Of a DNA stretch of 64,000 nucleotides, positions 11,443 to 31,796 are shown piece after piece. Under the pieces are notes generated by a model. It had not been told where the DNA came from. It made no database searches and saw only the letters and a program-made list of their open reading frames with translations. Origin of the DNA: Haloarcula sp. CBA1129. GTDB lineage: Archaea; Halobacteriota; Halobacteria; Halobacteriales; Haloarculaceae. Every line of letters begins with the position of its first letter. The stretch's first letter is position 1. The stretch lies in the NCBI RefSeq assembly GCF_008729015.1, contig NZ_RKSM01000001.1, positions 682,001 to 746,000 on the forward strand, given 5' to 3'. The translations under genes and the position numbers were made by a program.

Positions 11443-12840
11443 CTAGTCGTCGCCCCGCGCCCGCTCGAACATCGAGAGCGCGTCCTCGCGGCGCTTGCTG
11501 TGTTTCACGACCGGGTCGGGATACTCCGGCGCGGCGTTGCGCCGCTGTGTGAGCGAGCAGTCGTTCCACTCGTGGATGATCTCCGGGTCAGCGTCCCGAA
11601 GTTCCGGGACGTACTTCTTGATATACTCTGCGTCGGGGTCGTAGTCTTCGCCCTGCGTCATCGGATTGAAGATGCGGAAGTAGGGCTGTGCGTCGGTCCC
11701 CGTCGAAGCCGCCCACTGCCAGCCGCCGTTGTCGTTGGCCGTGTCGTGGTCGACCAGTTTCTCCCGGAACCACTCGTACCCGTGTCGCCAGTCGATGAGC
11801 AGGTCCTTCGTGAGGAAGGAGGCGACGATCATCCGAACGCGGTTGTGCATATACGCCTCCGCGCGGAGCTGTCGCATCCCGGCATCGACAATGGGATACC
11901 CGGTTTCGCCGTCCTTCCAAGCCTGCAGCAGTTCCTCGTCGTTTTCCCACTCAATGGGGTTCTCGTAGGATTTGTAGTTCGAACTGACGACGTGTGGATG
12001 GGCGAACAGCACCTGCGTGTAGAACTCCCGCCAAGCTAACTGCGACTGGAACTCCCGGACGGACTCGCGGCGGTCGCCGCCAATCCCCTCTTTGGCAGCC
12101 TCGGTGCGGTCGTACACCTCTCGAATGCCGATGGTCCCGAACTTCAGGTGGGCCGAGAGCCGAGAGGTGCATTCGTCTGCCGGGAAGTCCCGGCGCTGTT
12201 CGTACTCGTAGACGTTCTCGTCGAGGAAGTCATCGAGCAGCGCACGTGCTTCGTCGGTCCCTGCGGCTGGCACGGCAGCTTCCGGCTCCTCGAAGCCGAG
12301 GTCCGGCAGCGTTGGGAGCGCGTCGCCGTCGACATCGGCCAGTTCGTCAGCCCCCGGCGGCTCGTAGGGGCCTGCCTTCTCACGGTCGTGCCACTTTCGG
12401 CCGAAGTAGGTGAACACGCTGTAGGGGTCGCCGTCGTTCGTCGTAATCTCGCCGGGTTCGTGCAACACGGCGTTCTGGACGGCCTCACGGGCCACATCTG
12501 CGTCATCCAGCGCCTGCCGAACAGCGGCGTCACGTTCCCGTGCGAGCCCGGAGTAGTCTTTGCCCCAAGTGACTTTCTCCGCGCCGTGCTCAGCTGCCAG
12601 TTCCGGCAGAACAGCTGTGGGGTCACCCTCAGCAATGACAAGGTCACTGCCGCGGTCGCGGTACCACGAGCGCAAACTGTCGAGAGCGTCCAGCATGAAC
12701 GCGACCCGGGGCGGGCCGGCGTGGTCGAGAACGGCCCTGTCGAAGAGGAACACCGGAACAACGGGGTCTGACGGAGAGGCCGCGGCGAGGCCGGCGTTGT
12801 CCGTCGCCCGGAGGTCGCGGCGATGCCAATGCAAGCGCAT
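11443..12840 (-). CDS. phr: Deoxyribodipyrimidine photolyase (class I cryptochrome/photolyase family)
   Basis: A 465-residue flavoprotein. The N-terminal alpha/beta antenna domain begins MRLHWHRRDLRATDNAGLAA. The C-terminal FAD-binding domain carries the hallmark stretch WQWAASTGTDAQPYFRIFNP (about residues 377-396), followed by YDPDAEYIKKYVPEL. It repairs UV-induced cyclobutane pyrimidine dimers using light, in keeping with a surface-brine lifestyle. Start ATG 12840 is chosen over an ATG 27 bp upstream because family similarity begins at MRLHWHRRDLR. The gene stands alone and diverges from the enoyl-CoA hydratase gene. Confidence 0.92.
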   Translation of the reverse strand: MRLHWHRRDLRATDNAGLAAASPSDPVVPVFLFDRAVLDHAGPPRVAFMLDALDSLRSWYRDRGSDLVIAEGDPTAVLPELAAEHGAEKVTWGKDYSGLARERDAAVRQALDDADVAREAVQNAVLHEPGEITTNDGDPYSVFTYFGRKWHDREKAGPYEPPGADELADVDGDALPTLPDLGFEEPEAAVPAAGTDEARALLDDFLDENVYEYEQRRDFPADECTSRLSAHLKFGTIGIREVYDRTEAAKEGIGGDRRESVREFQSQLAWREFYTQVLFAHPHVVSSNYKSYENPIEWENDEELLQAWKDGETGYPIVDAGMRQLRAEAYMHNRVRMIVASFLTKDLLIDWRHGYEWFREKLVDHDTANDNGGWQWAASTGTDAQPYFRIFNPMTQGEDYDPDAEYIKKYVPELRDADPEIIHEWNDCSLTQRRNAAPEYPDPVVKHSKRREDALSMFERARGDD

Positions 12841-12946
12841 ACCTAGTACACGGACCAGCCCGGTCAAAAGGTACTGCCCAACGATGTTGGTCTGTCAGGC
12901 GCTGACGGACACCACTGTTATCTTTCCGCCGGTCAAGGGCCCACAT

Positions 12947-15193: not shown

Positions 15194-15303
15194 CAGAACG
15201 GCGCGAAATCGGCGGCTCCACGACGGCGTTCCAGTCGAACGGCCACTGTGCAGAATCGAGCGTATAGTTAGGCTCAAAGGTGCGCAATCCTAAGGCATGG
15301 CTG

Positions 15304-16644
15304 ATGGAACCACTGCGTGGTGACGAGACGACGGTTGGTGAGACAACGGTCGTCGCACGCGGGTGTCGCCTCGACGATGCACCGGTGCGGGCGGTACTGG
15401 AAACGGACGCTCGCCCTCGGTTCTTCTGGGCGGCCGGTACAGAGTCAATCGCGGCCCGCGGGAGCGCGGCGGCTGTGACTGCCGACGGGCAGTCGCGGTT
15501 CGACGACGTGCGGACAGCGGTCGAAGCGCTGTTCGATGACTGCTCAGTCCCCGACACTCTCCCGAGCGTCGCTCGACCGCGAGCGTTCGGAGGATTCGCG
15601 TTCCACAACGGAACGCACGAGGAAGAGGACTCCCCTTGGGACGGGTTTCCCAGTGCAGCGTTTTTCGTCCCCGAGATACAGGTAACCAAGCGGGACGACG
15701 ACGCTTGGCTCACAACGGTCGCGACAGGTCCCGAAGCCGCGACCGAAGCGGAGACGCTACTGGAGGAGTGGCGCGACCGGCTGGTCGCACACTCCGGGTG
15801 CGAACCGGGCACCCCGCCGGGAATTTCACACCGGGAGCGCACGCCAACACAGGACGGCTGGCGCGAGCAGGTGGCGGCCGCTGTCGCAAGCGTCGACCGC
15901 GGTGAGCTTCAGAAGGTCGTTCTCGCTCAGAGTCTTAACGCCACGCTGAACGCGGAGCTATCGGTCCCCGACGTGATGGCCCGATTGTCCACGACGTACC
16001 CGGACTGCTATCGGTTTATGTTGTCGCCAGCCTCCGGCGAGGGGACGTTCTTCGGAGCCACGCCGGAGCGACTGGTCTCGGTCCGCGGCCGGACGGTCCG
16101 CACGGAGGCGCTGGCCGGCTCGACGGGGCGGGGCGATACGCCCGCCGAGGACGAGTGGCTCGCAGCGGAACTCCTCGACAGCGAGAAGGACCGCCACGAG
16201 CAGAAGCTCGTCGCTGACGCGATACGGGACCAGCTGGAGCCCTTCGCCTCGACGGTCCGCATCGGCGACCGGACGATCCGCCGGCTCGCCACAGTCCAGC
16301 ACCTCCGCACGTCGATAACGGCCGAGCTCGACGACGACGAGCACGTCCTTTCGCTGGTCGAGGCGCTGCACCCGACGCCGGCCGTCGGCGGGCTGCCGCC
16401 GGACGCGGCGCTGCGGACCATCCGCGAGACAGAGGCGTTCGACCGCGGCTGGTACGCCGCCCCGATTGGCTGGGTCGACGCCGCCGGCAACGGGACCTTC
16501 GCCGTCGGCATCCGCTCGGCCGTCGCCACGGAGCGTGAGGCGACGCTGTTTGCGGGCGCAGGCATCGTTGCGGACAGCGATCCCGACCGCGAGTGGGACG
16601 AAGTCCAGCTCAAATACCGGCCGATTCTCGACGAACTGGAATGA
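15304..16644 (+). CDS. menF: Isochorismate synthase MenF
   Basis: A 446-residue chorismate-binding enzyme, converting chorismate to isochorismate, the entry step to menaquinone. The C-terminal half carries family blocks LQKVVLAQSLNA (near residue 204), FFGATPERLVSVRGRTVRTE (near 249-268), LAGSTGRG, ELLDSEKDRHEQKLV and HLHPTPAVGGLP-type sequence (EALHPTPAVGG). The following menD overlaps its stop by ATGA, fixing the pathway assignment over salicylate or anthranilate synthases. An in-frame GTG at 15280 is the alternative start. Confidence 0.9.
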   Translation: MEPLRGDETTVGETTVVARGCRLDDAPVRAVLETDARPRFFWAAGTESIAARGSAAAVTADGQSRFDDVRTAVEALFDDCSVPDTLPSVARPRAFGGFAFHNGTHEEEDSPWDGFPSAAFFVPEIQVTKRDDDAWLTTVATGPEAATEAETLLEEWRDRLVAHSGCEPGTPPGISHRERTPTQDGWREQVAAAVASVDRGELQKVVLAQSLNATLNAELSVPDVMARLSTTYPDCYRFMLSPASGEGTFFGATPERLVSVRGRTVRTEALAGSTGRGDTPAEDEWLAAELLDSEKDRHEQKLVADAIRDQLEPFASTVRIGDRTIRRLATVQHLRTSITAELDDDEHVLSLVEALHPTPAVGGLPPDAALRTIRETEAFDRGWYAAPIGWVDAAGNGTFAVGIRSAVATEREATLFAGAGIVADSDPDREWDEVQLKYRPILDELE

Positions 16645-18419
16645 CTGCACCGAACGTCAACACGCTGTGGGCGGAGACGCTCGTAGCCGAACTCGCCGCG
16701 GGCGGCGTTGACGCAGTCTGCCTCTCGCCGGGCAGTCGCTCGACGCCGCTAACGGTGGCTTTCGCCGAACACCCCGAAATCAAGGTGTTTTCCCATCTCG
16801 ACGAGCGGTCGGCGGCCTTCTTTGCGCTGGGACGCGCCCGCCGGACCGGCAAGCCGACGCCGCTGGTCTGCACGTCGGGGACGGCGGCAGCGAACTATCA
16901 CCCGGCGGTCATCGAAGCGAACCAGTCGGGCGTTCCGCTGCTCGTGCTGACGGCGGACCGACCGCCCGAGCTCATCGACAGCGGGGCGAACCAGACTGTC
17001 GACCAAGAGAAGCTGTACGGCGACGCCGTCCGCTGGTATCGAGATATGCCCGAGCCCGAGGCTGAGCCACGGAAGATACGAATGCTGCGAACCACCGCGG
17101 CCCGCGCCCTCGCAGAGAGTACCGGAGCCGACCCGGGCCCGGTCCACCTGAACTGTCGGTTCCGGAAGCCGCTGGAGCCGACGCCGGTGCCCGAGGACGA
17201 CCCGGCGGGCGTTTCGGCCGACTGGGCGGGCGGCGACGATGCGGCCGAGGCTGGCCGAGACGGACCGTTCGTCACGACGAGTGAGGGCGTGGTCACGCCG
17301 GACGAACAGACAGTGCACCGTGTTCGAGAGTCGCTTCGGGCCGCTGAACGGGGACTCATCGTCACTGGGCCGGCCGACCGGGGGCTCGGTGCCGAGTCGC
17401 TGGAGCGGCTGGCGTCGAAGACTGGCTTTCCCGTCCTCGCGGACCCGCTCTCTGACATGCGGTTCGGCCCGCACGTCGACAGCCTCGACGTGCCGGTCTG
17501 TGGCGGCTACGACGGCTATCTCGGACGCGAGAGCGTCGACGAGTGGGGTGACCCCGATGTCGTCGTCCGATTCGGCGCGTCGCCGACCTCGAAGCCGCTG
17601 CGGCGCTACCTCCGGGACGCCGACTGCCAGCAGTTCCTCGTCGACCCGGCCGGCGGCTGGTCGGAGGCCGAGTTCACGGCAACAGACCTACTCGTTGCCG
17701 ACCCCGACGCCACTGCCGACGCGCTCGCTGCGGAGCCGCTGGACGGTATCGCGGCGTCGTGGCGCGAGCAGTTCGCCACGGCGGAGCAGGCGCACTGGGA
17801 CGCCGTTGCCGAAACCGTCGCCGACACTTACTGGGAGGGCGGCGTTCTCGCGGACGTGGCGGCGCTGGCCCCCGATCCAGCCACGCTGTTTGTCTCGAAC
17901 AGCATGCCGATACGGGACATGGACCGGTTCGGCCGACCCCGCGACGCCGATCTGACCGTGCTGGGTAACCGCGGAGCCAGCGGCATCGATGGCATCACCT
18001 CGACGGCGCTCGGGGCCGGCAGCGCGACGACGGACCCGCTCGTGCTCGTCACCGGTGACTTGGCGTACTACCATGACATGAACGGCCTGCTCGCCCTCGG
18101 TCGCTGTGCCGTGGACGCGACGGTCGTCCTACTCAACAACGACGGCGGCGGCATCTTCCACATGCTGCCCATCGAGGATCACCCCACCTTCGAGGACCAG
18201 TTCCGGACGCCACACGGGCTCGACTTCGAGCCGACCGAGGCGCTCTATTCGCTGGAGTTCGAGCGGGTAGCCGACCGTCGGCAGTTCCGCGAGCGGTTCG
18301 CCGAGTCAGTCCGGACCGATGGGACGCAGGTCATCGAGGTCCGGTTCGACGCGGGCGACAGCCACGCGGTCAGAGAGCGGCTTGCCGAACAGGTCGCGGC
18401 ATCCCTCGCCGGCGACTGA
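16641..18419 (+). CDS. menD: MenD, SEPHCHC synthase (thiamine diphosphate enzyme)
   Basis: A 592-residue TPP-dependent enzyme that condenses 2-oxoglutarate with isochorismate. N-terminal CLSPGSRSTPLTVAFAEHP (~28-46) is the MenD signature. SHLDERSAAFFALG and CTSGTAAANYHPAVIEA follow. The TPP-binding region runs from GNRGASGIDG through VTGDLAYYHDMNGLL to LLNNDGGGIFHMLP (~443-512). Translationally coupled to menF (ATGA). Full length, no anomalies. Confidence 0.95.
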   Translation: MTAPNVNTLWAETLVAELAAGGVDAVCLSPGSRSTPLTVAFAEHPEIKVFSHLDERSAAFFALGRARRTGKPTPLVCTSGTAAANYHPAVIEANQSGVPLLVLTADRPPELIDSGANQTVDQEKLYGDAVRWYRDMPEPEAEPRKIRMLRTTAARALAESTGADPGPVHLNCRFRKPLEPTPVPEDDPAGVSADWAGGDDAAEAGRDGPFVTTSEGVVTPDEQTVHRVRESLRAAERGLIVTGPADRGLGAESLERLASKTGFPVLADPLSDMRFGPHVDSLDVPVCGGYDGYLGRESVDEWGDPDVVVRFGASPTSKPLRRYLRDADCQQFLVDPAGGWSEAEFTATDLLVADPDATADALAAEPLDGIAASWREQFATAEQAHWDAVAETVADTYWEGGVLADVAALAPDPATLFVSNSMPIRDMDRFGRPRDADLTVLGNRGASGIDGITSTALGAGSATTDPLVLVTGDLAYYHDMNGLLALGRCAVDATVVLLNNDGGGIFHMLPIEDHPTFEDQFRTPHGLDFEPTEALYSLEFERVADRRQFRERFAESVRTDGTQVIEVRFDAGDSHAVRERLAEQVAASLAGD

Positions 18420-18422
18420 TTT

Positions 18423-19376
18423 TCAGAGCCGCAACACGGACGCTGTCAGCAGCGACAGTCCGAACGGGAGCCACGTCCCTGACAGTGCCAGCGCCCCGAT
18501 GAGCGAGAACGCACTGATATTCAGCGTGACCAGTAGCACCGTTGTTGTCAGGCTCCAGCTCCCGAACACCATAATCGCGATAGTGGGCTCGGACTGGAGG
18601 TAACCGACCATGAAGAGCGTACAGACACCGATTGTCAGGTTGACCCACAACGGGAACGCCGGCAGCAGCGCGCTGAACAGCATCACCGGGTAGAGGGCGA
18701 ACGTGATGGCAAACAGCGTCAGCCCCCGGTTGGTCGGCATCTCCAAGAGCGGCCCGCGGGATGGGGTGTCGGTCTGGCGGACGGAGTACGTGGACGACGA
18801 ACTCCAAGTGGCCCCGCTGCCGGCGGTGTCGCTGAAGCCGCTGGTCGCGGTGGTGTCCGAGTGCCGGGTCGACGCTGATTTTGACGCAGTTGCCGTCCCG
18901 CTGGTCGCGCCGGCCGACTGACCGGTGCTCGAAGAGGTATCGGCGTCGGCAGTCGAGCGCTGCTGTCTGTCCTCGGTGACGCGCTCTCTGGCGGCCCGTT
19001 CGCGTCGCGCTCGTTCCCGGGCGTTGGTCTGAGATGTGCGGGAGTCAGCGCTCGATTCGGTCCGGTCGGTAGCCGAAGCAGACTCCTCATAGCCTGCGCG
19101 CCGCGCCGCTTCGGCCGCGTCACTGTCGCCGTCGTCCGCTATATTACTCCCGCTCGCGACGTAGGCGTCGTGTCCCACCCGGTCGTACCGCGCCCGCTCG
19201 GCCTCGTCGGTGAGTACGTCGCGGGCCTCGATGAGTCGCTGTGTGGCCTCGCCGGCGTCGGCCGCGTCGCTCACGTCTGGATGGGTCTCTTTCAGTTGCT
19301 CCCGATAGGCCGCCTCGATTGCCGCCGTCGAAGCGTCGGTTGAAACGCCCAGTACATCGTAGAAGGTCTCTGTCAT
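18423..19376 (-). CDS. J-domain membrane protein
   Basis: A 317-residue protein with an N-terminal DnaJ domain (residues 3-65; MTETFYDVLGVSTDASTAAI, then the HPD motif in ETHPDVSD). A long Ser/Thr/Ala/Asp-rich linker (~80-200) follows, then about four hydrophobic segments (~218-317). The HPD tripeptide implies it can stimulate an Hsp70 (DnaK). The membrane anchor suggests recruitment of the chaperone to the membrane. It is a membrane J-protein rather than classical DnaJ: Gly/Phe and zinc-finger regions are absent. Its stop codon abuts the end of menD (convergent). Confidence 0.82.
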   Translation of the reverse strand: MTETFYDVLGVSTDASTAAIEAAYREQLKETHPDVSDAADAGEATQRLIEARDVLTDEAERARYDRVGHDAYVASGSNIADDGDSDAAEAARRAGYEESASATDRTESSADSRTSQTNARERARRERAARERVTEDRQQRSTADADTSSSTGQSAGATSGTATASKSASTRHSDTTATSGFSDTAGSGATWSSSSTYSVRQTDTPSRGPLLEMPTNRGLTLFAITFALYPVMLFSALLPAFPLWVNLTIGVCTLFMVGYLQSEPTIAIMVFGSWSLTTTVLLVTLNISAFSLIGALALSGTWLPFGLSLLTASVLRL

Positions 19377-19430
19377 CCGAGACGTAACACCCGTCTCCCA
19401 GTCGGTCCGGCACTGTTCGACCGTCCGTCC

Positions 19431-19751
19431 TCACTCACTCCGACTCGACGCCTCCTCCCCTGTGCCGCGGGGCCGCTGGTGGTCGCCTGCATGGCTATCC
19501 TCGCCGACAGGCGGCCGTGCCTGCCGACGGTCCATCTCTGCACGCTGTTCCATTGCCGTCGCGATGCGCTCTAACGCCCAGAGCAGGCGCAGGAACAGGT
19601 AGAGAATCCAGGGGACCACGCCGACGAGAATTCCTAGGAGGACCTGTTGCACGATAATCAGACTGTACAGCACGATAGCGACCGAGAGGACCGCGAGGGC
19701 CGCCTTCGCCGCGCGGCGGGTCTGCGTGGAGGGCATCGCTAGTCGGTTCAT
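19431..19751 (-). CDS. Small membrane protein, unknown function
   Basis: A 106-residue protein with one long or two short hydrophobic segments (~17-60, AALAVLSVAIVLYSLIIVQQ and a following GILVGVVPWILYLFLRLLW) and a polar, charged C-terminus (Arg/Pro/Glu-rich). It lies 54 bp upstream of, and in the same direction as, the J-domain gene, so the two may be co-transcribed. The frame is open far upstream but that part is antisense to menB; ATG 19751 is the natural start. Confidence 0.65.
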   Translation of the reverse strand: MNRLAMPSTQTRRAAKAALAVLSVAIVLYSLIIVQQVLLGILVGVVPWILYLFLRLLWALERIATAMEQRAEMDRRQARPPVGEDSHAGDHQRPRGTGEEASSRSE

Positions 19752-19829
19752 GTGCGCGTCACCAAAGCGTTTGCTCTGAAGTGAGCGCGTACGAGGAATC
19801 TTTTTGCGAGGGCCGTCCCGAGCCACGGT

Positions 19830-20783
19830 ATGGTCTCTGAAATATTCGACCCGGAGCGATGGACGGTCATCGACCGGTTCGACTTCGCCGATATCACCTA
19901 TCACCGCTCGACTGACACGGGCGCGGTCCGCATCGCCTTCGACCGACCGGAGAAGCGCAACGCCTTCCGGCCGGAGACAGTCGACGAGCTCGCAACAGCG
20001 CTTGACCACGCCAAGCGACAGACCGATGTGGGCTGTGTCATCCTGACTGGGAACGGCCCGTCGCCGAAAGACGGCGGCTGGGCCTTCTGTTCCGGCGGGG
20101 ATCAGAGCATCCGCGGCGAGAGCGGGTACGAGTACAGCGAGTCGCCCCGCGACTCGGACACAGCGAGCGGGGAGCAGAGCGACCCGCGAGAAACGAGTGA
20201 CGGCGTGACCGACGACGCTCCCGAGAACGTCGGCCGGCTTCACATTCTCGAAGTCCAGCGCCAGATTCGCCACATCCCAAAGCCCGTCGTCGCGGTCGTC
20301 CCGGGGTGGGCCGTCGGCGGCGGCCACTCGCTGCACGTCGTCTGTGACCTCACGCTCGCCAGCGAGGAACACGCGAAATTCCTCCAGACGGACCCCGACG
20401 TGGGAAGTTTCGACGGCGGCTTCGGCTCGGCGTATCTCGCGCGTCAGGTCGGCCAGAAGAAGGCCCGCGAGGTGTTCTTCCTCGGGAAGACCTACGACGC
20501 CGAGGAAGCCGCGGACATGGGGATGGTCAACGACGTGGTGCCCCACGAAGACTTGGAGGACACCGCTATCGAATGGGCCAAACGGATGAATGAGAAGTCA
20601 CCGACGGCGATGCGGATGCTCAAGTACGCGTTCAACCTCGATTCCGACGGGATGGTCGGCCAGCAGGTGTTCGCCGGCGAGGCGACGCGGCTGGCGTACA
20701 TGACCGACGAGGCACAGGAGGGGCGGGACGCGTTCAACGAGGGCCGCAAGCCGGATTTCGACGACGTGCCGTGGCACTACTAA
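19830..20783 (+). CDS. menB: 1,4-dihydroxy-2-naphthoyl-CoA synthase MenB
   Basis: A 317-residue crotonase-superfamily enzyme that cyclises o-succinylbenzoyl-CoA. Family blocks include AFDRPEKRNAFRPETVDEL (~36-54), the MenB-specific FCSGGDQSIRGESGY (~87-101), VPGWAVGGGHSLHVVCDLTL (~157-176) and FDGGFGSAYLARQVGQKKAREVFF. An acidic Ser/Asp/Glu insertion (~103-133) is typical of halophilic homologues. It lies between menF-menD and menE-menC-menA. CTTTTTGCG at about 19801 may be the promoter element. Confidence 0.93.
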   Translation: MVSEIFDPERWTVIDRFDFADITYHRSTDTGAVRIAFDRPEKRNAFRPETVDELATALDHAKRQTDVGCVILTGNGPSPKDGGWAFCSGGDQSIRGESGYEYSESPRDSDTASGEQSDPRETSDGVTDDAPENVGRLHILEVQRQIRHIPKPVVAVVPGWAVGGGHSLHVVCDLTLASEEHAKFLQTDPDVGSFDGGFGSAYLARQVGQKKAREVFFLGKTYDAEEAADMGMVNDVVPHEDLEDTAIEWAKRMNEKSPTAMRMLKYAFNLDSDGMVGQQVFAGEATRLAYMTDEAQEGRDAFNEGRKPDFDDVPWHY

Positions 20784-20868
20784 GCGGGCAGAGCAGTACC
20801 ATCGCGTGTTGCCCACGGTCCTACCGGCTGACCATGTCGGAGCGACCAAGCGCAGCTCAGCGCCGGCC

Positions 20869-22140
20869 GTGAAAGCGAAGTGTTTTAAATTATTAGGCCA
20901 ACCTAAAACCGCGTCCAACGACGAAACGACACGCAAGGGCCCGACGCGGCGCGAGGCGATTACGTACGGCGGCGCGGTCATCGGCGGGGGTCTGTTCGCG
21001 GGCTGTTCAGGCCAGTCGACCGACGATTCGACGCCGACGGGCGAGACAGCGACAGACGCGGAACAGACGGAGCCGGTGACTTCGACGCCGGCGTCCGACT
21101 ACACGACGGACCTGTTGCCGGTCGGGACGGTTCGTCTCGACGACTCGCCTGAGAACGTCCTCACGCACTTCCCGTGGTTTGCAGACATGGCGAGCGCACT
21201 CGGTCGCGGGGAGAGCATCAACAACGTCTGGTGGGACGGAACTGCGTCAACGCTCGAGTACTTCACCGCCGGGATGGACGGCTTCGATATCGCGTGGGCG
21301 GACAGGACGGCGTCGTACGGCTTCTCGAAGGAGCAACTGTACGAACTCGACAGCGACCTACATCTCGTCGATCCGGCGTGGCTGTCGACACAAGACAACT
21401 GGAACCAGAGCGACATCAACGAGGTCGCGGACAACATCAGCCCGTGGCTCGGTAATTACTACAGCAGTTTCCACGCGACGCCGCCGGAGGGGTGGGCCGA
21501 CACGTACCAGTACTACACCCTCTGGGAACTGTTCGACCGTGTCGCGTCGCTGTACGGTGAACGGTCCCGCTACGAGATGCTGGCGTCGGTCCACGACGAC
21601 CTGCTCGGGACTATCGAGGCCGAACTCCCGCCGGAGTCGGAGCGACCGACGGTAGCTTTCCTCTCCATTTCGACCGACCTGTCCTCGATATACCTGCTCC
21701 GACTGAACGCGCCCGGGTACTTCAATTCCCACACCCGACCGCTCGGTGCCGTCGACGCCTTCGGCGGCGAGAAGTGGGAGGGCGCGTTCAAACAGGTCGA
21801 CATGGAGGCGCTGCTAGAGGCCGACCCGGATGCGATACTCGCGCTCTGGACCGTCACGGACGCCGTCGACTTCGAGCAGATGACACAGAACCTCAAAGAC
21901 GACCCCGTCGGCGGCGACCTGTCGGCAGTCCGGAATGACCGCGTGTACGCGCAGGGAACCCGCTGGCAGGGGCCGCTAATGAACCTCTTCCAGCTTGAGA
22001 TGACAGCCAAGCAGTTGTATCCCGAGCAGTTCGGCGCGTGGCCGGGCTACGAGAACGGCGATTCCTACCCCGAGTTCGAGCCGGCGGACCAGCTGTTCGA
22101 CCACCGGCGAGTGGCTGAGACCATCCGGACCGACGGGTAG
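20869..22140 (+). CDS. Iron-type ABC transporter substrate-binding lipoprotein (start codon uncertain)
   Basis: A binding protein of the FepB/BtuF (PBP type III) kind. It has a twin-arginine motif TRREAITYGG, lipobox GLFAGC, a Thr-rich linker, then a binding domain with VGTVRLDDSPENVLTHFPWF. The listed start (GTG 20869) is the first standard in-frame start codon before the signal. However, a TATA-like TTTTAAAT (20883-20890) and a DtxR-like palindrome (20893-20906) lie inside this frame. The spacing points to a leaderless start at 20911, where the codon is GCG (GCG TCC AAC GAC). No ATG, GTG or TTG occurs between the operator and the signal peptide. Function as an iron or corrinoid binding protein is inferred. 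No permease is adjacent. Confidence 0.75.
   Translation: MKAKCFKLLGQPKTASNDETTRKGPTRREAITYGGAVIGGGLFAGCSGQSTDDSTPTGETATDAEQTEPVTSTPASDYTTDLLPVGTVRLDDSPENVLTHFPWFADMASALGRGESINNVWWDGTASTLEYFTAGMDGFDIAWADRTASYGFSKEQLYELDSDLHLVDPAWLSTQDNWNQSDINEVADNISPWLGNYYSSFHATPPEGWADTYQYYTLWELFDRVASLYGERSRYEMLASVHDDLLGTIEAELPPESERPTVAFLSISTDLSSIYLLRLNAPGYFNSHTRPLGAVDAFGGEKWEGAFKQVDMEALLEADPDAILALWTVTDAVDFEQMTQNLKDDPVGGDLSAVRNDRVYAQGTRWQGPLMNLFQLEMTAKQLYPEQFGAWPGYENGDSYPEFEPADQLFDHRRVAETIRTDG
20883..20890 (+). promoter_or_regulatory. TATA-like box before the iron-type binding protein
   Basis: TTTTAAAT lies immediately upstream of the DtxR-like palindrome. A start 26-28 bp downstream would fall at about 20911. 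Confidence 0.55.
20893..20906 (+). promoter_or_regulatory. DtxR/IdeR-like operator
   Basis: TTAGGCCAACCTAA is a perfect inverted repeat of TTAGG and CCTAA around a 4-bp centre. These half-sites match the known metal-dependent DtxR-family operators. It sits directly after the TATA-like box, where a repressor would block TFB/polymerase entry. The position before an iron-type binding protein supports iron-dependent repression. Confidence 0.65.
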
Positions 22141-22230
22141 TGACCAGTTACGACGAAACTCCGCTGTGCTTCCACTGCCAGCTTTGACCCATCCGGCGAG
22201 GGTGCTGTGGGCGGACAGGTCGCCGGGTGC

Positions 22231-22581
22231 TCAGTCCTCGTACGCCAGCGTCATGACCCACTGCGAGAAGGTGTCGTCGTGGGGGTCGACCTCTTCGTCG
22301 CCGATAAAGGGCGAGAGCTGGTCACCGGCCATCAGGAGTGAGAAGTCGAGGTCGCGGGCCGCAGGCGTCAGGTAGTACGTGTTGTGCCCCTCGTACACCG
22401 TCTCCTCACGCTGGATGAGGTCCTTCTCGAACAGAGACTCGACGATGCGACTCCCCTTTCGCGAGGAGACGTCGAGTTCTTTCCAGAAGTCGCTCTGGTG
22501 GATGCCACCGGACTCACGAATCAGTTCGAGCCCGGCCCGCTCGCCGTCAGAAAGGTCCGCCTCCGACGCTGCTGAACTCAT
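22231..22581 (-). CDS. Winged-helix transcriptional regulator
   Basis: A 116-residue protein. Residues 10-72 form a winged helix (LSDGERAGLELIRESGGIHQ, recognition region ELDVSSRKGSRIVESLFEKD, wing YEGHNTYYL). The C-terminal half (DQLSPFIGDEEVDPHDD) is acidic. ATTTAAG on the minus strand (plus 22610-22616) lies about 30 bp before ATG 22581, a leaderless arrangement. It sits between the iron-type binding protein (convergent) and the NRDE gene. No target is evident. Confidence 0.75.
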   Translation of the reverse strand: MSSAASEADLSDGERAGLELIRESGGIHQSDFWKELDVSSRKGSRIVESLFEKDLIQREETVYEGHNTYYLTPAARDLDFSLLMAGDQLSPFIGDEEVDPHDDTFSQWVMTLAYED

Positions 22582-22608
22582 GTATTGTGTACACCGTGAG
22601 ACGGCCGC

Positions 22609-23346
22609 TTAAATCTGACCTTCGACCGGGCGGTAGGGCGTCCGGCATGGCGGCCCGTCCGCGTACTGATACTCGTGGTCAGCACCCAGCGTGATGAGCG
22701 ATGACGACCGCGTGCCGAAGCCGTTGCCGTGGACGCAGACGCCGTACTCGTGATCGCTGATGGTATCGCCAGCGCGGTCGATCCACTCGTCGGCGGCTTC
22801 GCCGGGCTCCGGAGCAAGTACCTCGTGTAGCCGTGTCGCGTTTGTCGCTTGCTCCTCGCCGGCATCGGGCCGATGGGCGGGAATCCGATAGTCGCCGTCC
22901 GCACCGACGTTGACGACGACGTGAACGCCGGGCTTGAAGTTCTGGACCGCGAGCTGACCGTCCCATTCCAGCAGGACGGCGGCGTTTTCGTCGGCCAGCA
23001 GGAGATTGAACCCCTCGTACTCGGCCGCTCTAGTTGCTTGCTCGACGGCGCGAGCGGCGGACTCCGCGCTCTCGTGACTCAACGCGTCCCGGACGAGCAA
23101 GCCGCGCGAGCGGTCGCCGGCCAGTTCGGCGTCGACCCAGCGGTTCGTCACCGCCGCCAGCAGGCCGTGCTCGTTGTAGCCGATCCACGTCCCGTCGGCC
23201 TCCTCGTCTGCCGGTGCCACGACGCGACTCCCCCAGTGGCGCTGTTGTGGCGACTGCGACGGCCGGTCGAGTCGCTCGTCACGGTTCGCCGCGACCGCGA
23301 CCGGCGTGCCGTCGAAGACCTGCCACGCGAGGACGATTGTACACAC
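22609..23346 (-). CDS. NRDE (TANGO2-like) family protein
   Basis: A 245-residue protein starting MCTIVLAWQVFDGTPVAVAA and carrying NRDERLDRP (~22-30), the Asn-Arg-Asp-Glu signature that names the family. The initial Met-Cys places a potentially N-terminal nucleophile cysteine at position 2, as in Ntn hydrolases. The GTG start at 23346 is forced by the MC start. Biochemical role is unsettled; the eukaryotic homologue is linked to lipid or heme handling. Confidence 0.85.
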   Translation of the reverse strand: MCTIVLAWQVFDGTPVAVAANRDERLDRPSQSPQQRHWGSRVVAPADEEADGTWIGYNEHGLLAAVTNRWVDAELAGDRSRGLLVRDALSHESAESAARAVEQATRAAEYEGFNLLLADENAAVLLEWDGQLAVQNFKPGVHVVVNVGADGDYRIPAHRPDAGEEQATNATRLHEVLAPEPGEAADEWIDRAGDTISDHEYGVCVHGNGFGTRSSSLITLGADHEYQYADGPPCRTPYRPVEGQI

Positions 23347-23397
23347 GGGTCCCAGTACGCTGCGGACGTAGAAAACCGCTTGGCTCCGCTCGTTGCG

Positions 23398-24966
23398 CTA
23401 TCGGGTCGCTTCGCTCGACCTGCCATCGCCCGTTCCGGTATCGGCAGCGAGTAGCGACCGGACGGCGGTTCGGTCGACGGTTCCGGAGGCCGTCCGCGGC
23501 AGCGCGTCGGCGACCTGAACCGTTTTCGGGACCTCGTAGGCGGCGAGCCGTTCGGCACAGTGGTCTCGAACCGTTCCGGGCAAGACCTCACCAACGACCA
23601 GTGCCGCGACGCGCTGCCCCCACTCCGGGTCCTGCACTCCGACTACGGCCGCGTCAGCAACGTCTGGATGGTCGCGAATCGCCGCTGTGACTGTACTCGC
23701 GTCGACGTTTTCCCCGCCGGTCACAATCTGGTCGTCGACGCGGCCCTCCACCCAGAGGTGACCATCCGCGTCCCGATAGCCCACGTCACCGGTCCTGAAC
23801 CCGTGGTCGCCGAACGCGTCACCGTCTCCGGTCAGATACCCCGGTGTCACCGTGGGGCCATCGACGACGATCTCGCCGTGTTCGCCGGGGTCGCACGGCT
23901 CACCGTCAGCGACGACCGTTACGTCGGTAAACACGAGCGGCTGGCCGACGGTGCCGGACCGCTCAAACGCGGTCTCGGGTCGCGCCGTCGCTATCTGTGA
24001 CGCCGTCTCGGTCATTCCATAGGTAGGACACACTGGCACACCGTGCTCCTGACACCGCTCGACGAGCGACTCGCTGGCCGGGCCGCCACCGAGCAGGACG
24101 AAGCGAAGCGAGGCTGGCGGTTCCCAGCCCGCATCCAGCAGCCGCGAGAGCATCGTCGGCACCAGTGAGACGCCCGTCACCGACCGGTCGGCGATGACTT
24201 GTTGTGTTGTCTCGGCGTCGAACGACCGCTGGACGACGACTGCGGTGCCGTACAGCGCGCTCCGGACGAACGGGGCCAGCCCGCCCATGTGATACGTGGG
24301 TAGACACACCAGCCAGCGATCCGTAGGAAGGACGCCGAGGCGGTAGGAGGACGCGATGGCGCTGGCGACGAGATTGCCGACGGTTAGCTGGACGCCCTTC
24401 GGCTCGCTGGTCGTCCCCGAGGTGAAGATAACGAGCTGTGTGTCCGTCCGGGAGAGGGTCGCTGGAGTCACATCTGTGGCTGTCTCGTCGGCCGGCACGT
24501 CCGTCGCTGCCTCGTCGGCCGTAACGTTCGCGGCTGCCTCGTCAGCTACACCGGTGCCGGGCAAGTCCCCGTCGACAGAAACGACGGGACAGCCGTCGAG
24601 GTCCGCTGCCAGTGACGCAGTGCCGTCGCCACAGACGAGGAGGTCGGCGTCGAGCGACGACAGCTGTGTTTGGATCGTCTCCGCGTCGAGTTCGACGTTC
24701 AGCGGTGCCAGCGTCGCTCCCTGTCGCATCGCCGCGAACAGGAGCGTCCCGACCGCCGGCCGAGTCGGCAGGAGCGTCGCGATGGTGGCGTCCGGGGCGT
24801 CGGTCCGCCGGTCGAGTTCGGCAGCCACCGCGTCGACAGCGGTATCGAGTTCGCGGTACGTCACTTCTGTCCCCGAATCCGCCGCGACCATCGCCGTTCG
24901 GTCTGGCGTCGTGGCGGCACGGTGGGTGACGAGGTCCGTTGTCGGCCAGTCGACGGGGTCACGCAT
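23398..24966 (-). CDS. menE: o-Succinylbenzoate-CoA ligase MenE
   Basis: A 522-residue ANL-superfamily adenylate-forming enzyme. The AMP-binding P-loop IFTSGTTSEPKG lies near residues 180-191, PTYGMTETASQIA near 313-325 and FRTGDVGYRDADGHLWVEGR near 392-411, with a conserved C-terminal hinge and Lys region (PRTASGTVDR). It activates o-succinylbenzoate with ATP and CoA. It overlaps the end of menC by 8 bp, so menA-menC-menE is one transcription unit. An unusual acidic tandem repeat (~141-167) is inserted before the P-loop. Confidence 0.92.
   Translation of the reverse strand: MRDPVDWPTTDLVTHRAATTPDRTAMVAADSGTEVTYRELDTAVDAVAAELDRRTDAPDATIATLLPTRPAVGTLLFAAMRQGATLAPLNVELDAETIQTQLSSLDADLLVCGDGTASLAADLDGCPVVSVDGDLPGTGVADEAAANVTADEAATDVPADETATDVTPATLSRTDTQLVIFTSGTTSEPKGVQLTVGNLVASAIASSYRLGVLPTDRWLVCLPTYHMGGLAPFVRSALYGTAVVVQRSFDAETTQQVIADRSVTGVSLVPTMLSRLLDAGWEPPASLRFVLLGGGPASESLVERCQEHGVPVCPTYGMTETASQIATARPETAFERSGTVGQPLVFTDVTVVADGEPCDPGEHGEIVVDGPTVTPGYLTGDGDAFGDHGFRTGDVGYRDADGHLWVEGRVDDQIVTGGENVDASTVTAAIRDHPDVADAAVVGVQDPEWGQRVAALVVGEVLPGTVRDHCAERLAAYEVPKTVQVADALPRTASGTVDRTAVRSLLAADTGTGDGRSSEATR
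24466..24546 (-). repeat. Three tandem 27-bp repeats inside menE
   Basis: Three in-frame copies encode ADEAAANVT, ADEAATDVP and ADETATDVT. The units diverge by a few substitutions only. The position is a surface linker before the ATP-binding loop, so the expansion is likely tolerated. Confidence 0.7.
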
Positions 24967-26005
24967 CGGGGTTCACCTCTGCCGGGTCGATACCGAGGCC
25001 AGTCTCTTGGGGGACCGACATCGTTCCGTCGGTCACCGTCGTCGGGTCCGGAGCGAGGTCGGCCGCCAGTCTGTCACCGGTCGCCAGACCGCAGGCTCGG
25101 ACGTCGGGAATTGCGGCGGCGACGTGCAGCGCCGCGAGGCGGGCGACGACGGCGTCGATAGTCGTCGTGATAACGGGTTCGATCCCCTGCTCACGAGCGC
25201 GGAGCGCCAGCGTGTGGGCGTTGCCCGGACCGCCGAGTACCATCGGTTTCAGTATCAGCACGTCGGCCGCGTCGGCGTCGAGTACGCTATCGACCCGGCG
25301 GTCGACGAGCGACTCGTCAAGCGCGACGCCGACGCCAGTGCCCCGAAGGGCTGCGTGGCCGGCGAGGTCGTCGGCCGGGAGCGGCTGTTCGACGTAGGCC
25401 ACGGAAAGCGGCGCGAGCCGGTCGAAGGCGTCCGCAGCCTGCTCGCGGGACCACGCGCCGTTTGCGTCGGCCCGGAGCGTCACGTCGTCGCCCACGCGCT
25501 CGCGGACGGTCCGAACGCGCTCTACGTCCTCGTCAACGGATCGCTTCCCGACTTTGAGCTTACAGCAGTCGTAGCCGGCCTCGACCGCCTGTGAAACGGC
25601 GTCGGCTGTCTCGGCTGGCGACCCGTCCCCGACCGTCGCGTTGACCGGAACCCGGTCGCATCGCCTGTCAGCATCGAACCACTGGTACAGCGGCACGCCG
25701 TCGGCTTTGGCATCGGCGTCCAGCAACGCGGTCGCGAAGCCGTGGCGGGCAGCGGGGACGGACGCGGCGTCCAGTGAAAGGAGAATATCAGTATGCCCGC
25801 CGCCAGCAGCGACCTCGGCCGCGTCGTCGAGCCCGCGTTGGCAGTCATCAACGGACTCAGTCCAGCCCGGAAGCGGTGTGGCTTCGCCGACGCCGGTCTC
25901 GCCGCGGTGGTCGTAGCGGACGACGAACCCGGAGCGCTGGCTGATGGTTTCGCGGGCGGTGGCAAGTGGACTCGAAAGCGGGAGCGAGAACGGGTCGACC
26001 TTCAT
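24959..26005 (-). CDS. menC: o-Succinylbenzoate synthase MenC
   Basis: A 348-residue enolase-superfamily dehydratase. The general base lysine motif CCKLKVGKRS is followed by metal ligands in LRADANGAW, YVEQPLPADDL and GVALDESLVD, in canonical order. It dehydrates SHCHC to o-succinylbenzoate. The start ATG 26005 overlaps the menA stop (26002-26004), and the end overlaps menE, showing tight coupling. The longer upstream open frame is antisense or out of family and is not used. Confidence 0.9.
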   Translation of the reverse strand: MKVDPFSLPLSSPLATARETISQRSGFVVRYDHRGETGVGEATPLPGWTESVDDCQRGLDDAAEVAAGGGHTDILLSLDAASVPAARHGFATALLDADAKADGVPLYQWFDADRRCDRVPVNATVGDGSPAETADAVSQAVEAGYDCCKLKVGKRSVDEDVERVRTVRERVGDDVTLRADANGAWSREQAADAFDRLAPLSVAYVEQPLPADDLAGHAALRGTGVGVALDESLVDRRVDSVLDADAADVLILKPMVLGGPGNAHTLALRAREQGIEPVITTTIDAVVARLAALHVAAAIPDVRACGLATGDRLAADLAPDPTTVTDGTMSVPQETGLGIDPAEVNPDA

Positions 26006-26961
26006 AGTAGCTGTGGGGCGGCGAGTCCCAGCGCGAACAGGACGGAGTGGGCGAACAACGTCTGTCCGACCCGTTCGAGCGTCGGGTTCAGCGCATCGCC
26101 GCCGGTCTGTGTGAGGACCGTCTTGGAGACGGTGGCTGCCAGCGGCAGCGTTAGTAGCGGAGCCAGCGCGGGCAGTCCGTACTGACTGTCGAGAGCGAAC
26201 ACGACCGGGACGACGTAGGCCATCCCGACCATCAACAGGAACTCGACGCGGCTCCATCCATAGCCCAGATAGACGGCTAGCGTCTTCTTGCCCGTGGCGC
26301 GGTCTGTCTCGCGGTCTCGGATGTTGTTGACGACGAGAATCGCGGTTGACAGGCCGGCTGCCGGGAGGCTCGCCGTGACGGCGGCAGCAGTAACCGATCC
26401 CGGCGGAAGCGTCATCGGGAACGTGCCGACGCCGCTGGCGCTCGCCACGGCCTGTACGTAGTAGGTCCCGGTAACCGCGACAAGGCCGAAGTAGACGAAC
26501 ACGAACAGGTCCCCGAGGCCGCGGTAGCCGTATGGGAACGGACCGCCGGTGTAGAGAACCCCGGCGGCGATACCCGAGAGGCCAACAATGACAATGGGAA
26601 GGCCGCCGACGGCGACGAGATAGACGCCGATGACAACGGCGAGCCCATACGTCGCTATCATCGCTCGTTTGACCTCGTCAGCGTCGATGAGGCCGCCAGC
26701 GGTTACCCGGGTGAACCCCTCGCGTTCGTCGGTATCGGCCCCTTTCACCGCGTCGTAGTAGTCATTCGCGAAGTTCGTTCCGATCTGGATAAGCAGCGCG
26801 CCCAGCAGCGCCGCGACTGCCGGCAGTGGAGCGAAGACCCCGGCGTGGACTGCCAGCCCCATCCCGGCGATGACTGGCGCGGCCCCGGCAGGCAGTGTCT
26901 GTGGCCGCGCGGCCATCACCCACGCCTGTCGCTTCGAAACGTCCGCCGTCGCTGTACTCAT
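26002..26961 (-). CDS. menA: 1,4-Dihydroxy-2-naphthoate polyprenyltransferase MenA
   Basis: A 319-residue UbiA-superfamily membrane prenyltransferase. The first Asp-rich motif NFANDYYDAVKGAD lies near residues 64-77 and the second, NNIRDRETDRATGKKTLA, near 206-223. About eight or nine hydrophobic helices surround them. It attaches the isoprenoid tail to the naphthoate ring in the membrane. First gene of the menA-menC-menE unit. Confidence 0.93.
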   Translation of the reverse strand: MSTATADVSKRQAWVMAARPQTLPAGAAPVIAGMGLAVHAGVFAPLPAVAALLGALLIQIGTNFANDYYDAVKGADTDEREGFTRVTAGGLIDADEVKRAMIATYGLAVVIGVYLVAVGGLPIVIVGLSGIAAGVLYTGGPFPYGYRGLGDLFVFVYFGLVAVTGTYYVQAVASASGVGTFPMTLPPGSVTAAAVTASLPAAGLSTAILVVNNIRDRETDRATGKKTLAVYLGYGWSRVEFLLMVGMAYVVPVVFALDSQYGLPALAPLLTLPLAATVSKTVLTQTGGDALNPTLERVGQTLFAHSVLFALGLAAPQLL

Positions 26962-28875: not shown

Positions 28876-31122
28876 ATGACTGATACCGATGAGACGATGC
28901 GTATTCTCCACGTCGACGACGAGCCGGGGTTTGCCGACATGGCGACGTCGTTTCTCGAACGCGAGGACGGCCGGTTAGAGGTTCAGACTGCAACAAGCGC
29001 CGCGGCGGGACTGACTATCTTGGCCGACGACGACATCGACTGTGTCGTCTCCGACTACGACATGCCCGACCGGAACGGCATCCAGTTTCTCGAAGCCGTC
29101 CGCGAGGAGTACGATGCTCTCCCCTTCATTCTCTTCACCGGCAAAGGCTCCGAAGAGATCGCCAGCGACGCGATTTCGGCCGGCGTCACCGACTATCTGC
29201 AGAAAGGGAGCGGCACCGACCAGTACGCGGTGCTCGCGAACAGGATCACGAACGCTGTGGAGTCCCAGCGTGTCAAACGCGAGCGCAACCGCCAACTCGA
29301 CGCCATCGAAACCGCACAGGAAGGGATCAGCATCCTCGACGAAGACGGGCAGTTCATTTTCGTCAACGAAGCCTACGCGGACCTCTATGGCTACGATCCG
29401 GACGAGATGGTGGGAGAACACTGGGAACTCCTGTATCAAGAGGAAGACATTCCACGGATCTACGAAGAGATCATCCCGACTGTCGAGGAGAACGGGTACT
29501 GGACCGGAACGACGACCGGGCTCCGTGCCGACGGCAGTACGTTCACCGAAGACCACGTTCTCGCGCTGACCGACCGTGGTGAACTGGTCTGTACAGTCCG
29601 TGATATCTCCAACCAGCGCGACGGCGAACAGGAACTCACCCGAATCAAGCGTGCCATGGACGAGGCACCCATTGGAATCACGATCACTGGCCTCGGGCAG
29701 GAGGACACACCGATCACTTATGCCAACAGTCGGTTTCTGGAACTGACCGGCTACGCGGAGTCGGAGGTGTGCGGCCGAAACTGCCGGTTCCTGCAAGGCG
29801 AAGGGACCGAGTCCGAACCGGTCGACGCGATGCGGGCGGCCATCGATGCGGACGAACCCGTGTCAGTCGAACTCCGGAACTACCGCAAGGACGGAACCAT
29901 GTTCTGGAGTCAGGTATCTATCGCCCCGGTCCGCGATGATGACGGAACGGTCGACAGCTACGTCGGGTTCCAGCAGGACATCACCGAGCGGAAGGAACAC
30001 GAACGCCGCCTCAGAGCGCTCAGCGAATCGGTGCAGAATCTGATTCGGGCGGACACGCGCAAGGAAGTCGCCGAGATCGGCGTCGAGACAGCGCGCACTG
30101 TGCTCGGACTCGAAGCGAGCACGATCCACCTCTACAACGAGACGGAACAGACCCTCGAACCGGTCGCCGCATCCGACGCGATCTATGACTTGGTACCGGA
30201 CCTACCGACCTTCACACCCGGAGACAGCATCGCGTGGCGCGTCTACGAGTCCGGCGATGCACTCGCCGTCGATGATGTCCATGCCGACCCGGATATCTAC
30301 AACCCGGACACGCGGATCAAAAGCGAGCTATATCTCCCGCTCGACGAGCACGGAATCCTGCTGGCCGGCTCGAAGAGGACCGCGGCGTTCGACCAGCGGG
30401 ACATCGTCCTCGGTGAGATTCTGGCCGGACACGTCACCAGTGCACTCAAGCAGGTCGAAGGAACCGAACAGTTACGCGACCGCGAGCAAGACCTCAAACA
30501 GCACAACGACCGGCTCGAAGCGTTTACCAGCATCGTCTCCCACGACTTGCGGAATCCGCTGAACGTCGCCCAAGGACGACTGCAACTGGCACGCGAGCAG
30601 TGCGAGAGTGAGCATCTGGCCGCTGTCGAGCGGGCACACGAGCGGATGGACACGCTGATAGCCGATCTGCTCACACTGGCACGCGACGGTGAGACCGTGA
30701 CCGACCGCGAACCGGTCGCACTTGCGTCGCTCGTGGATAGTTGCTGGACGACTGTCGAGACGGCCGATGCGACACTCACCACTGATATCGACCGGACCGT
30801 TCTGGCAAACGAGAGTCGCCTGAAGCAGTTGTTCGAGAACCTCGTTCGGAACGCCATCGAGCACGCCGGGTCGGACGTGACCGTGACAGTCGGGGCGTTG
30901 GACGACGGGTTCTACGTCGCAGACGACGGCCCCGGTATCCCCGAAGCCGACCGGGAGACTGTGTTCGAAGTCGGGTACTCGACGAACACGGATGGGACTG
31001 GGTTCGGGCTGTGTATCGCCAAGCAGGTCGCGGAGGCACACGGCTGGGAGATACGCGTTCGCGACAGTGCCGACGGTGGCGCACGGTTCGAAGTTACCGG
31101 CGTCTCGTTTCGCGATGCGTAG
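28876..31122 (+). CDS. REC-PAS-LOV-GAF histidine kinase (putative blue-light sensor)
   Basis: A 748-residue cytoplasmic multi-domain kinase without transmembrane segments. A receiver domain (~8-125) has phosphoacceptor Asp60 (VVSDYDMPD) and Lys110. A PAS domain follows (~140-250). A second PAS (~255-372) carries GRNCRFLQ with Cys303, the flavin-adduct cysteine motif of LOV domains, plus NYRKDG and VGFQQDIT with the flavin-proximal Gln366. A GAF-like domain lies at ~385-525. HisKA has VSHDLRNPL with His556. HATPase has NLVRNAIEH, DDGPGIP and GTGFGLCI. It probably senses blue light and passes phosphate to an unlinked regulator. The usual FWN Asn of LOV is Ser here (FWSQ). Confidence 0.88.
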   Translation: MTDTDETMRILHVDDEPGFADMATSFLEREDGRLEVQTATSAAAGLTILADDDIDCVVSDYDMPDRNGIQFLEAVREEYDALPFILFTGKGSEEIASDAISAGVTDYLQKGSGTDQYAVLANRITNAVESQRVKRERNRQLDAIETAQEGISILDEDGQFIFVNEAYADLYGYDPDEMVGEHWELLYQEEDIPRIYEEIIPTVEENGYWTGTTTGLRADGSTFTEDHVLALTDRGELVCTVRDISNQRDGEQELTRIKRAMDEAPIGITITGLGQEDTPITYANSRFLELTGYAESEVCGRNCRFLQGEGTESEPVDAMRAAIDADEPVSVELRNYRKDGTMFWSQVSIAPVRDDDGTVDSYVGFQQDITERKEHERRLRALSESVQNLIRADTRKEVAEIGVETARTVLGLEASTIHLYNETEQTLEPVAASDAIYDLVPDLPTFTPGDSIAWRVYESGDALAVDDVHADPDIYNPDTRIKSELYLPLDEHGILLAGSKRTAAFDQRDIVLGEILAGHVTSALKQVEGTEQLRDREQDLKQHNDRLEAFTSIVSHDLRNPLNVAQGRLQLAREQCESEHLAAVERAHERMDTLIADLLTLARDGETVTDREPVALASLVDSCWTTVETADATLTTDIDRTVLANESRLKQLFENLVRNAIEHAGSDVTVTVGALDDGFYVADDGPGIPEADRETVFEVGYSTNTDGTGFGLCIAKQVAEAHGWEIRVRDSADGGARFEVTGVSFRDA

Positions 31123-31609: not shown

Positions 31610-31796
31610 ACGCCCGGTTTTGGTTGGGCCGCTGAAAAGGGTTGTCGTCCCGAGATAGTCCGTGTATACGGTCGGTCAGCGAGCAACGCCAATCCGGAGA
31701 ATCGCGCCGTCGTCGGGTGACTGGGTCGCGAAGTTTCGGACTTGGATTACTGAAACGTCGACTGTGGGTGCCTGATACGGCTGGTGACAGTCCGTC

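Follow-up and report, generated by a model that had tools for sequence, protein, structure and literature searches.

Kinases with LOV domains have already been described in haloarchaea. A survey published in 2014 lists 167 archaeal LOV proteins and describes those without an HTH domain as kinases with RR, GAF, and PAS modules (PMC4844311). In a later study (Valle et al. 2025, PMC12202551), most of the 28 LOV sequences from Lake Diamante belong to proteins that have receiver, PAS, and GAF modules together with a C-terminal kinase. The same study showed that ALovD-1, a haloarchaeal LOV domain from Halonotius, binds FMN, forms a light state, and photocycles in salt concentrations of up to 3 M. 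As described, such kinases resemble the one analyzed here in having a cysteine-bearing LOV motif within a multi-domain kinase that also contains receiver, PAS, and GAF modules, and they come from the same archaeal class (PMC4844311, PMC12202551). In ALovD-1 the motif Phe is replaced by Tyr, and the full-length homologue of that domain has three PAS domains (PMC12202551); the kinase analyzed here instead has Ser in place of the Asn of FWN. The cysteine-less BAT-LOV proteins of halobacteria likewise combine a haloarchaeal LOV fold with a receiver and a GAF domain in one protein, but they lack the adduct cysteine and have an HTH output (Yee et al. 2015, PMC4682037); their cysteine-less counterpart in this genome is a paralogue, L011, rather than this kinase. 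A review on motility mentions both the LOV domain and haloarchaea (PMC5812497).

The closest proteins of solved structure are bacterial. YtvA of Bacillus subtilis (PDB 2mwg, 2pr5) and the YtvA-FixL fusion 4gcz, which we take to be YF1, are closest in sequence and share the adduct cysteine, the first Asn, and the Gln with the LOV domain studied here. They differ from this kinase in output, which is STAS in YtvA and a fused FixL kinase in 4gcz, and in having Asn (N104) where it has Ser345. Presumably neither YtvA nor the fusion has a REC or GAF domain. The best match in fold is the LOV-HK of Brucella abortus (PDB 6ph2-6ph4, 6pps), a LOV-PAS-kinase protein. It is bacterial and its LOV domain precedes its PAS domain, whereas the order is reversed in the haloarchaeal kinase; we also assume that it is a kinase of another type without an N-terminal receiver.

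The window analyzed here is a stretch of 64,000 nucleotides from Haloarcula sp. CBA1129, whose genome is 4.05 Mb in 5 contigs and 99.99% complete. Its LOV kinase extends the known catalogue of archaeal LOV kinases by one member with one small variation in the flavin pocket, and it is not a new class. The literature on archaeal, haloarchaeal, and Haloarcula LOV domains, judged by titles or the beginnings of abstracts, contained nothing on this protein or on a natural Ser at this site, though the protein or an orthologue may be among the 167 proteins of the 2014 list.

Domain organization of the kinase

The kinase gene encodes a protein of 748 amino acids with six domains. The open reading frame runs from 28876 to 31122 on the plus strand and starts with ATG. 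A Pfam profile search gives the order REC-PAS-LOV-GAF-HisKA-HATPase, and the protein aligns over its full length with orthologues from 12 other Haloarcula genomes. The receiver occupies residues 10-115 (28903-29220, plus strand; Response_reg, E 3.1e-21). Five PAS families each match two stretches of the protein. The first PAS domain, at about residues 142-250 (29299-29625, plus strand), lacks the LOV motif; the best stretch of PAS_8 covers residues 142-188, and the end of the domain is taken from the structural model. The second is the LOV domain, residues 256-372 (29641-29991, plus strand), where the best stretch of PAS_9 is 276-371 (whole-protein E 6.1e-35). It is followed by a GAF domain at residues 394-524 (30055-30447, plus strand; GAF_2, E 3.4e-15), a HisKA (DHp) domain at residues 547-604 (30514-30687, plus strand; E 7.2e-13), and a HATPase_c domain at residues 645-741 (30808-31098, plus strand; E 4.8e-22).

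The protein is a sensor histidine kinase, but strictly it does not count as a hybrid kinase. The HisKA domain has its phospho-acceptor histidine, His556 (30541-30543), and HATPase_c has intact N and G boxes, as in two-component sensor histidine kinases. The preliminary description of this DNA had called the protein a haloarchaeal hybrid histidine kinase with its receiver at the N-terminus. The kinase assignment and the receiver position stand, while the term hybrid does not, since the only Response_reg stretch is the N-terminal one and the protein ends 7 residues past HATPase_c, leaving no C-terminal receiver. Asp60 (29053-29055) is probably the phospho-acceptor of the receiver, judging from its family. 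No Response_reg partner was found with Pfam in the 20 other ORFs scanned, which lie within the first 38.2 kb of the window.

A receiver is common among the LOV proteins of the genus. Response_reg was found in 37 of 67 Haloarcula LOV proteins scanned, although this count includes 13 that are the window gene and its orthologues, and the other 24 were counted whatever the position of the receiver. HATPase_c was found in 53, GAF_2 in 29, and HTH_10 in 2; the 67 were taken from 85 distinct proteins by omitting the 18 with the lowest scores, and seven of them end at the edge of their locus. The suggestion that the receiver architecture is special was therefore dropped.

A model of the full-length protein has a mean pLDDT of 74.9 and a pTM of 0.40, and its GAF part is poor, so the modelled placement of the domains and the path of transmission are not trustworthy. 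Inter-domain helices are predicted at residues 115-145, 245-263, 370-391, and 507-575, the last two of which are continuous. Since the GAF domain lies between the LOV domain and the kinase core, any light signal must pass it.

Identification of the LOV domain

The second PAS domain has the sequence features of a LOV domain, as originally proposed. GRNCRFLQ is found at residues 300-307 (29773-29796, plus strand), with the codon of the adduct cysteine, Cys303, at 29782-29784, and it is identical in 13 of 13 orthologues. NYRKDG is at residues 335-340, and Gln366 (29971-29973, plus strand), placed by alignment to YtvA, is within VGFQQDIT at 363-370. The expected FWN is FWS at residues 343-345, the codon of Ser345 being AGT (29908-29910, plus strand). 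The residues named in the preliminary description, including the Ser, are thus all where it placed them in the translation.

Searches against known structures and protein families point to YtvA. In a phmmer search of the PDB the closest sequence to the LOV domain is YtvA (2mwg, E 1.7e-35). The YtvA-FixL fusion 4gcz comes next, and the matches further down include LOV histidine kinases, aureochromes, and phototropins. Ten of the eleven motif and pocket positions (300, 302-307, 320, 335, 345, and 366) have the same residue as YtvA, and position 345 is the only difference. N335 and Q366 correspond to two of the three residues that bond flavin in YtvA (N94, N104, and Q123), and Ser345 takes the place of N104. 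Arg304 and Arg320 are both present, and we assume from LOV structures that these face the flavin phosphate. Gln366 is the equivalent of YtvA Q123 and of AsLOV2 Q513, in the numbering of PMC10949197. The search pattern for LOV domains given in the 2014 survey (PMC4844311) fits residues 284-303. Among NCBIfam models, that of the YtvA family ranks first (E 2.5e-49). Its score of 168 bits is below the cut-off of 250 for the YtvA equivalog (NF052652), and the 149.6 bits for the blue-light-activated histidine kinase equivalog (NF052306) are below its cut-off of 450; these are whole-protein cut-offs, and only the LOV domain is shared. A degenerate DNA pattern for GxNCR(F/Y)LQ matches once in the 4.05 Mb genome, at this kinase, and the reversed pattern does not match. 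With the E value for YtvA, this shows that the resemblance to LOV is no accident of chance.

The predicted structure agrees with a LOV fold, although the fold alone is no proof of flavin. A model of the domain made from 76 aligned domains has a mean pLDDT of 91.5. In the fold comparison, it aligns with the Brucella LOV-HK at a Z score of 22.3 (123 residues, rmsd 1.1), and the Z score for 4gcz is 20.4. The LOV-like PAS domain of the mouse EAG1 channel (4hoi), which we understand to bind no flavin, is also among the fold matches (Z 19.7), and the residues must therefore carry the claim. Together, residues, model, and conservation support the view that this haloarchaeal histidine kinase has a flavin domain of the LOV type, equipped with the adduct cysteine.

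Conservation in Haloarcula

The kinase is conserved in part of the genus and is, by sequence comparison, under purifying selection. Orthologues, defined by at least 77% identity over the LOV domain, are found in 13 of 32 Haloarcula genomes, including that of the window, and the nearest named relatives of the LOV domain are those of Haloarcula vallismortis, H. sebkhae, and H. mannanilytica. Cys303, Asp60 with its acidic pair, His556, Asn659, Asp683, and GTGFGL are kept in all 13. The dN/dS of the LOV domain is about 0.10-0.19 between the window protein and the six of the 12 other orthologues that were compared. At sites that are invariant in the other 12, the window protein has changed at 2 of 72 in the LOV domain (T294A and N345S), 1 of 81 in REC, 0 of 84 in the first PAS domain, and 3 of 86 in GAF. 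In the kinase, 4 of 141 such sites differ. The same scoring gives zero to five LOV changes for any one of the other 12 orthologues. No relaxation of the LOV domain was seen in the window lineage by invariant-site changes and dN/dS. With LOV changes and dN/dS values of this size, the domain with Ser345 does not look like one in decay.

The surroundings of the gene are also conserved. In the three named orthologue loci examined (L063, L064, and L065) the gene has the same neighbors. UbiA and an AMP-ligase lie upstream, and the downstream genes encode a short acidic protein, a small hypothetical protein, and one with DUF7490. At about 31676-31730 on the minus strand, the window has what appears to be left of the C-terminal end of a lipoprotein-like ORF of 346 amino acids. 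This ORF is whole in H. vallismortis (L063:6058-7098, minus strand), where it lies between the same neighbors, and the spacing in L064 and L065 points to its presence there as well. The remnant is probably the result of a lineage-specific deletion beside the LOV kinase.

The change from Asn to Ser at residue 345

Ser345 is the one pocket residue that sets the window protein apart. The other 12 orthologues have FWN, with Asn encoded by AAT or AAC, and only the window protein has FWS, through a single A-to-G change. Among 160 distinct related domains, the site is Asn in 156, Ser in 3, and Ala in 1. These domains come from 196 loci that were fetched by similarity to the LOV domain of the window, and the set leans towards LOV for that reason; from 202 distinct matches, those with fewer than 105 bits, more than three internal gaps, or fewer than 105 columns were dropped.

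The three Ser domains require three changes on the tree of the 160 domains, and each of them sits among Asn domains. The domain of the window protein is in the clade of Haloarcula orthologues (support 100/99), L106 is beside L096 (98/90), and L187 is in a clade of ten (98/81). The count of three is a recount over all 160 rows, as the group test had set the Ser rows against the cysteine-less rows only; the bootstrap of this tree was unsettled, and the recount matched names by order, with 120 of 160 matched by sequence.

A strict pattern for NCRFLQ...FWS with AGY codons is found in frame in two of 391 genomes of the class, the genome of the window and G068, while the corresponding FWN pattern has at least one match in 197. 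The FWN pattern is strict as well, and one or more orthologues known to have FWN escaped it (G031 gives 0). The domain in G068, L198, was found by pattern and lies outside the 160; it has FWS with GVNCRFLQ, and the domains nearest to it, L107, L126, and L100 at 76-78%, have FWN. FWS with TCN codons matches in one genome of the 391, G140, but this was not counted because the match is 128 bases long and 129 would be in frame. That sequence, L199 (G140:C6:106356-106483, minus strand), could be a LOV gene with a frameshift, or the pattern may match here by chance. With FWN in the other 12 orthologues, three Ser among 160 domains, three changes on the tree, and FWS in 2 of 391 genomes, the substitution is, as judged from these alignments, recent in the window lineage, rare, and repeated.

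Published work on YtvA suggests what the substitution may do. FWN is termed hyperconserved in PMC12202551, and PMC10949197 describes a bond from N104 of YtvA to flavin C4=O. When a fluorescent protein derived from YtvA and lacking the adduct cysteine was put through deep mutational scanning, N104S remained functional, with significantly reduced fluorescence, and N94S did not (PMC4041573). Since that protein lacks the cysteine, it informs on flavin retention and not on the photocycle. Another study gives dark recovery times in wet E. coli cells of 1100 s for YtvA N104D, 620 s for N104A, and 2100 s for the wild type, and its authors considered the effect of N104 mutations in YtvA to be moderate and not destabilizing; point mutants of these Asn residues in AsLOV2 were poorly expressed and unstable (PMC4161478). 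The loss of an Asn that is kept in all 12 other orthologues could hurt the protein. By analogy with the N104 variants of YtvA and its derivative, however, Ser345 should let the photocycle run and reset somewhat faster.

Proposed function

The window protein is likely to belong to the known type of haloarchaeal LOV kinases, as a soluble histidine kinase that senses blue light, with Ser345 probably weakening one flavin bond. We infer a mechanism in which the LOV domain would hold FMN, and blue light would produce an adduct between Cys303 and flavin C4a. Gln366 would read the protonated N5 of the flavin. The signal would then leave the LOV domain through its C-terminal J-alpha helix and reach the HisKA/HATPase core by way of the GAF domain and a long signalling helix. 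There, autophosphorylation at His556 would be altered and the phosphoryl group passed to a response regulator. Asp60 of the N-terminal receiver would probably be phosphorylated by another kinase or by its own, and the receiver may act as a second input or a brake. Ser345, replacing the Asn that bonds flavin C4=O, would leave one weaker hydrogen bond, and this would be expected to speed dark recovery and perhaps weaken flavin retention without abolishing the photocycle.

Other explanations differ in what they say about the cysteine and about Ser345. The flavin-binding domain could be mainly a sensor of redox state or oxygen, like NifL, Aer, and the cysteine-less haloarchaeal BAT-LOV, with light as a side effect. 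NifL is among the NCBIfam matches (E 7e-39; 133.7 bits, under its cut-off of 242.45), although both the YtvA and the blue-light-kinase models outscore it. The same genome has a cysteine-less LOV domain (GQNIRFLQ in L011), and the BAT-LOV study reports that LOV proteins can signal without the cysteine and that a halobacterial BAT LOV domain changes conformation upon flavin reduction (PMC4682037). In the window protein and all 12 orthologues, however, Cys303 has been kept, although a sensor of redox state alone is not known to require it, and we regard a mainly redox function as unlikely. It is less probable still that Ser345 belongs to a decaying LOV domain that has lost flavin affinity or signalling, so that the kinase answers other inputs only. 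Just two of the 72 invariant LOV sites have changed, inside the range of the other 12 orthologues, the LOV dN/dS values are those given above, and YtvA N104A and N104D still photocycle (PMC4161478). These points outweigh the rarity of Ser at the site, both in the 160 domains and relative to FWN in the 391 genomes, and the dimmer fluorescence of the N104S protein in the mutational scan (PMC4041573).

A sequencing or assembly error, with FWN in the true protein, is very improbable. The codon AGT is one base from AAT, which encodes this Asn in most of the other 12 orthologues. The change is nevertheless a clean transition, the ORF is uninterrupted, the genome is 99.99% complete with 5 contigs, and Ser is found at the same site in other LOV domains (L106, L187, and L198). 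It is unlikely that the substitution is an adaptive tuning of the photocycle, in which a natural change of the hydrogen bond to flavin C4=O made a slow haloarchaeal LOV kinase reset fast in this species and arose separately in other haloarchaeal LOV lineages (L106, L187, and, by similarity, L198). If it were, the window protein and its H. vallismortis orthologue, whose LOV domains are 88% identical, would be a natural experiment on LOV timing. The reading that we prefer, from residues and models, is that of a kinase that probably works as a blue-light sensor and resets faster. If so, it would provide a soluble flavin-based blue-light input to two-component signalling besides the three rhodopsin genes of the same genome. 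The change from Asn to Ser is in addition a ready-made natural variant with which to probe the second pocket Asn in a LOV kinase.

Other light-related and LOV genes

The photolyase of the window says little about the function of the kinase. Its presence, which had been brought forward together with the kinase, was borne out by two Pfam families at 11443-12867 on the minus strand (FAD_binding_7, E 3.3e-81; DNA_photolyase, E 1.6e-42). It lies about 16 kb away on the opposite strand, with no light gene in the 10 ORFs scanned between the two, and a link between photolyase and kinase was dropped. Six of these 10 ORFs look like menaquinone-type biosynthesis genes. At 15280-26961 there are a chorismate-binding enzyme, a TPP enzyme, an enoyl-CoA hydratase, an AMP-ligase, a MenC-like enolase, and a UbiA prenyltransferase.

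Three other LOV-like domains stand out in the genome of the window. L010 (C1:2156613-2156996, minus strand) has GKNCRVLQ and FWN. With L143-L146, L148-L151, and L154 it makes up a sister clade (support 100/99) of LOV kinases in Haloarcula, comprising 10 distinct domains. The clade has kept the cysteine but has Ile, Val, or Met in place of the Phe of GxNCRFLQ; this conserved replacement could tune the photocycle. The adduct cysteine is absent from 11 of the 160 related domains. L011 (C1:930191-930568, minus strand) and L156 have Ile or Thr in its place with the other motif residues kept, and are natural cysteine-less LOV domains within the genus. The third, L012 (C3:489373-489702, plus strand), is in a LOV-like protein of 198 amino acids on contig 3 with GENLRLLQ and FKN. 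DNA matching L012 is found on Haloarcula plasmids; in H. marismortui and H. sinaiiensis its annotation is PAS domain-containing protein. Another genome of the genus has an open frame of 2318 amino acids with two LOV-like domains (L163, G014:C9:143000-146500), one with GRNCRFLQ and FWN and the other with GRNPRFLQ and YWA, in which Pro replaces the cysteine.
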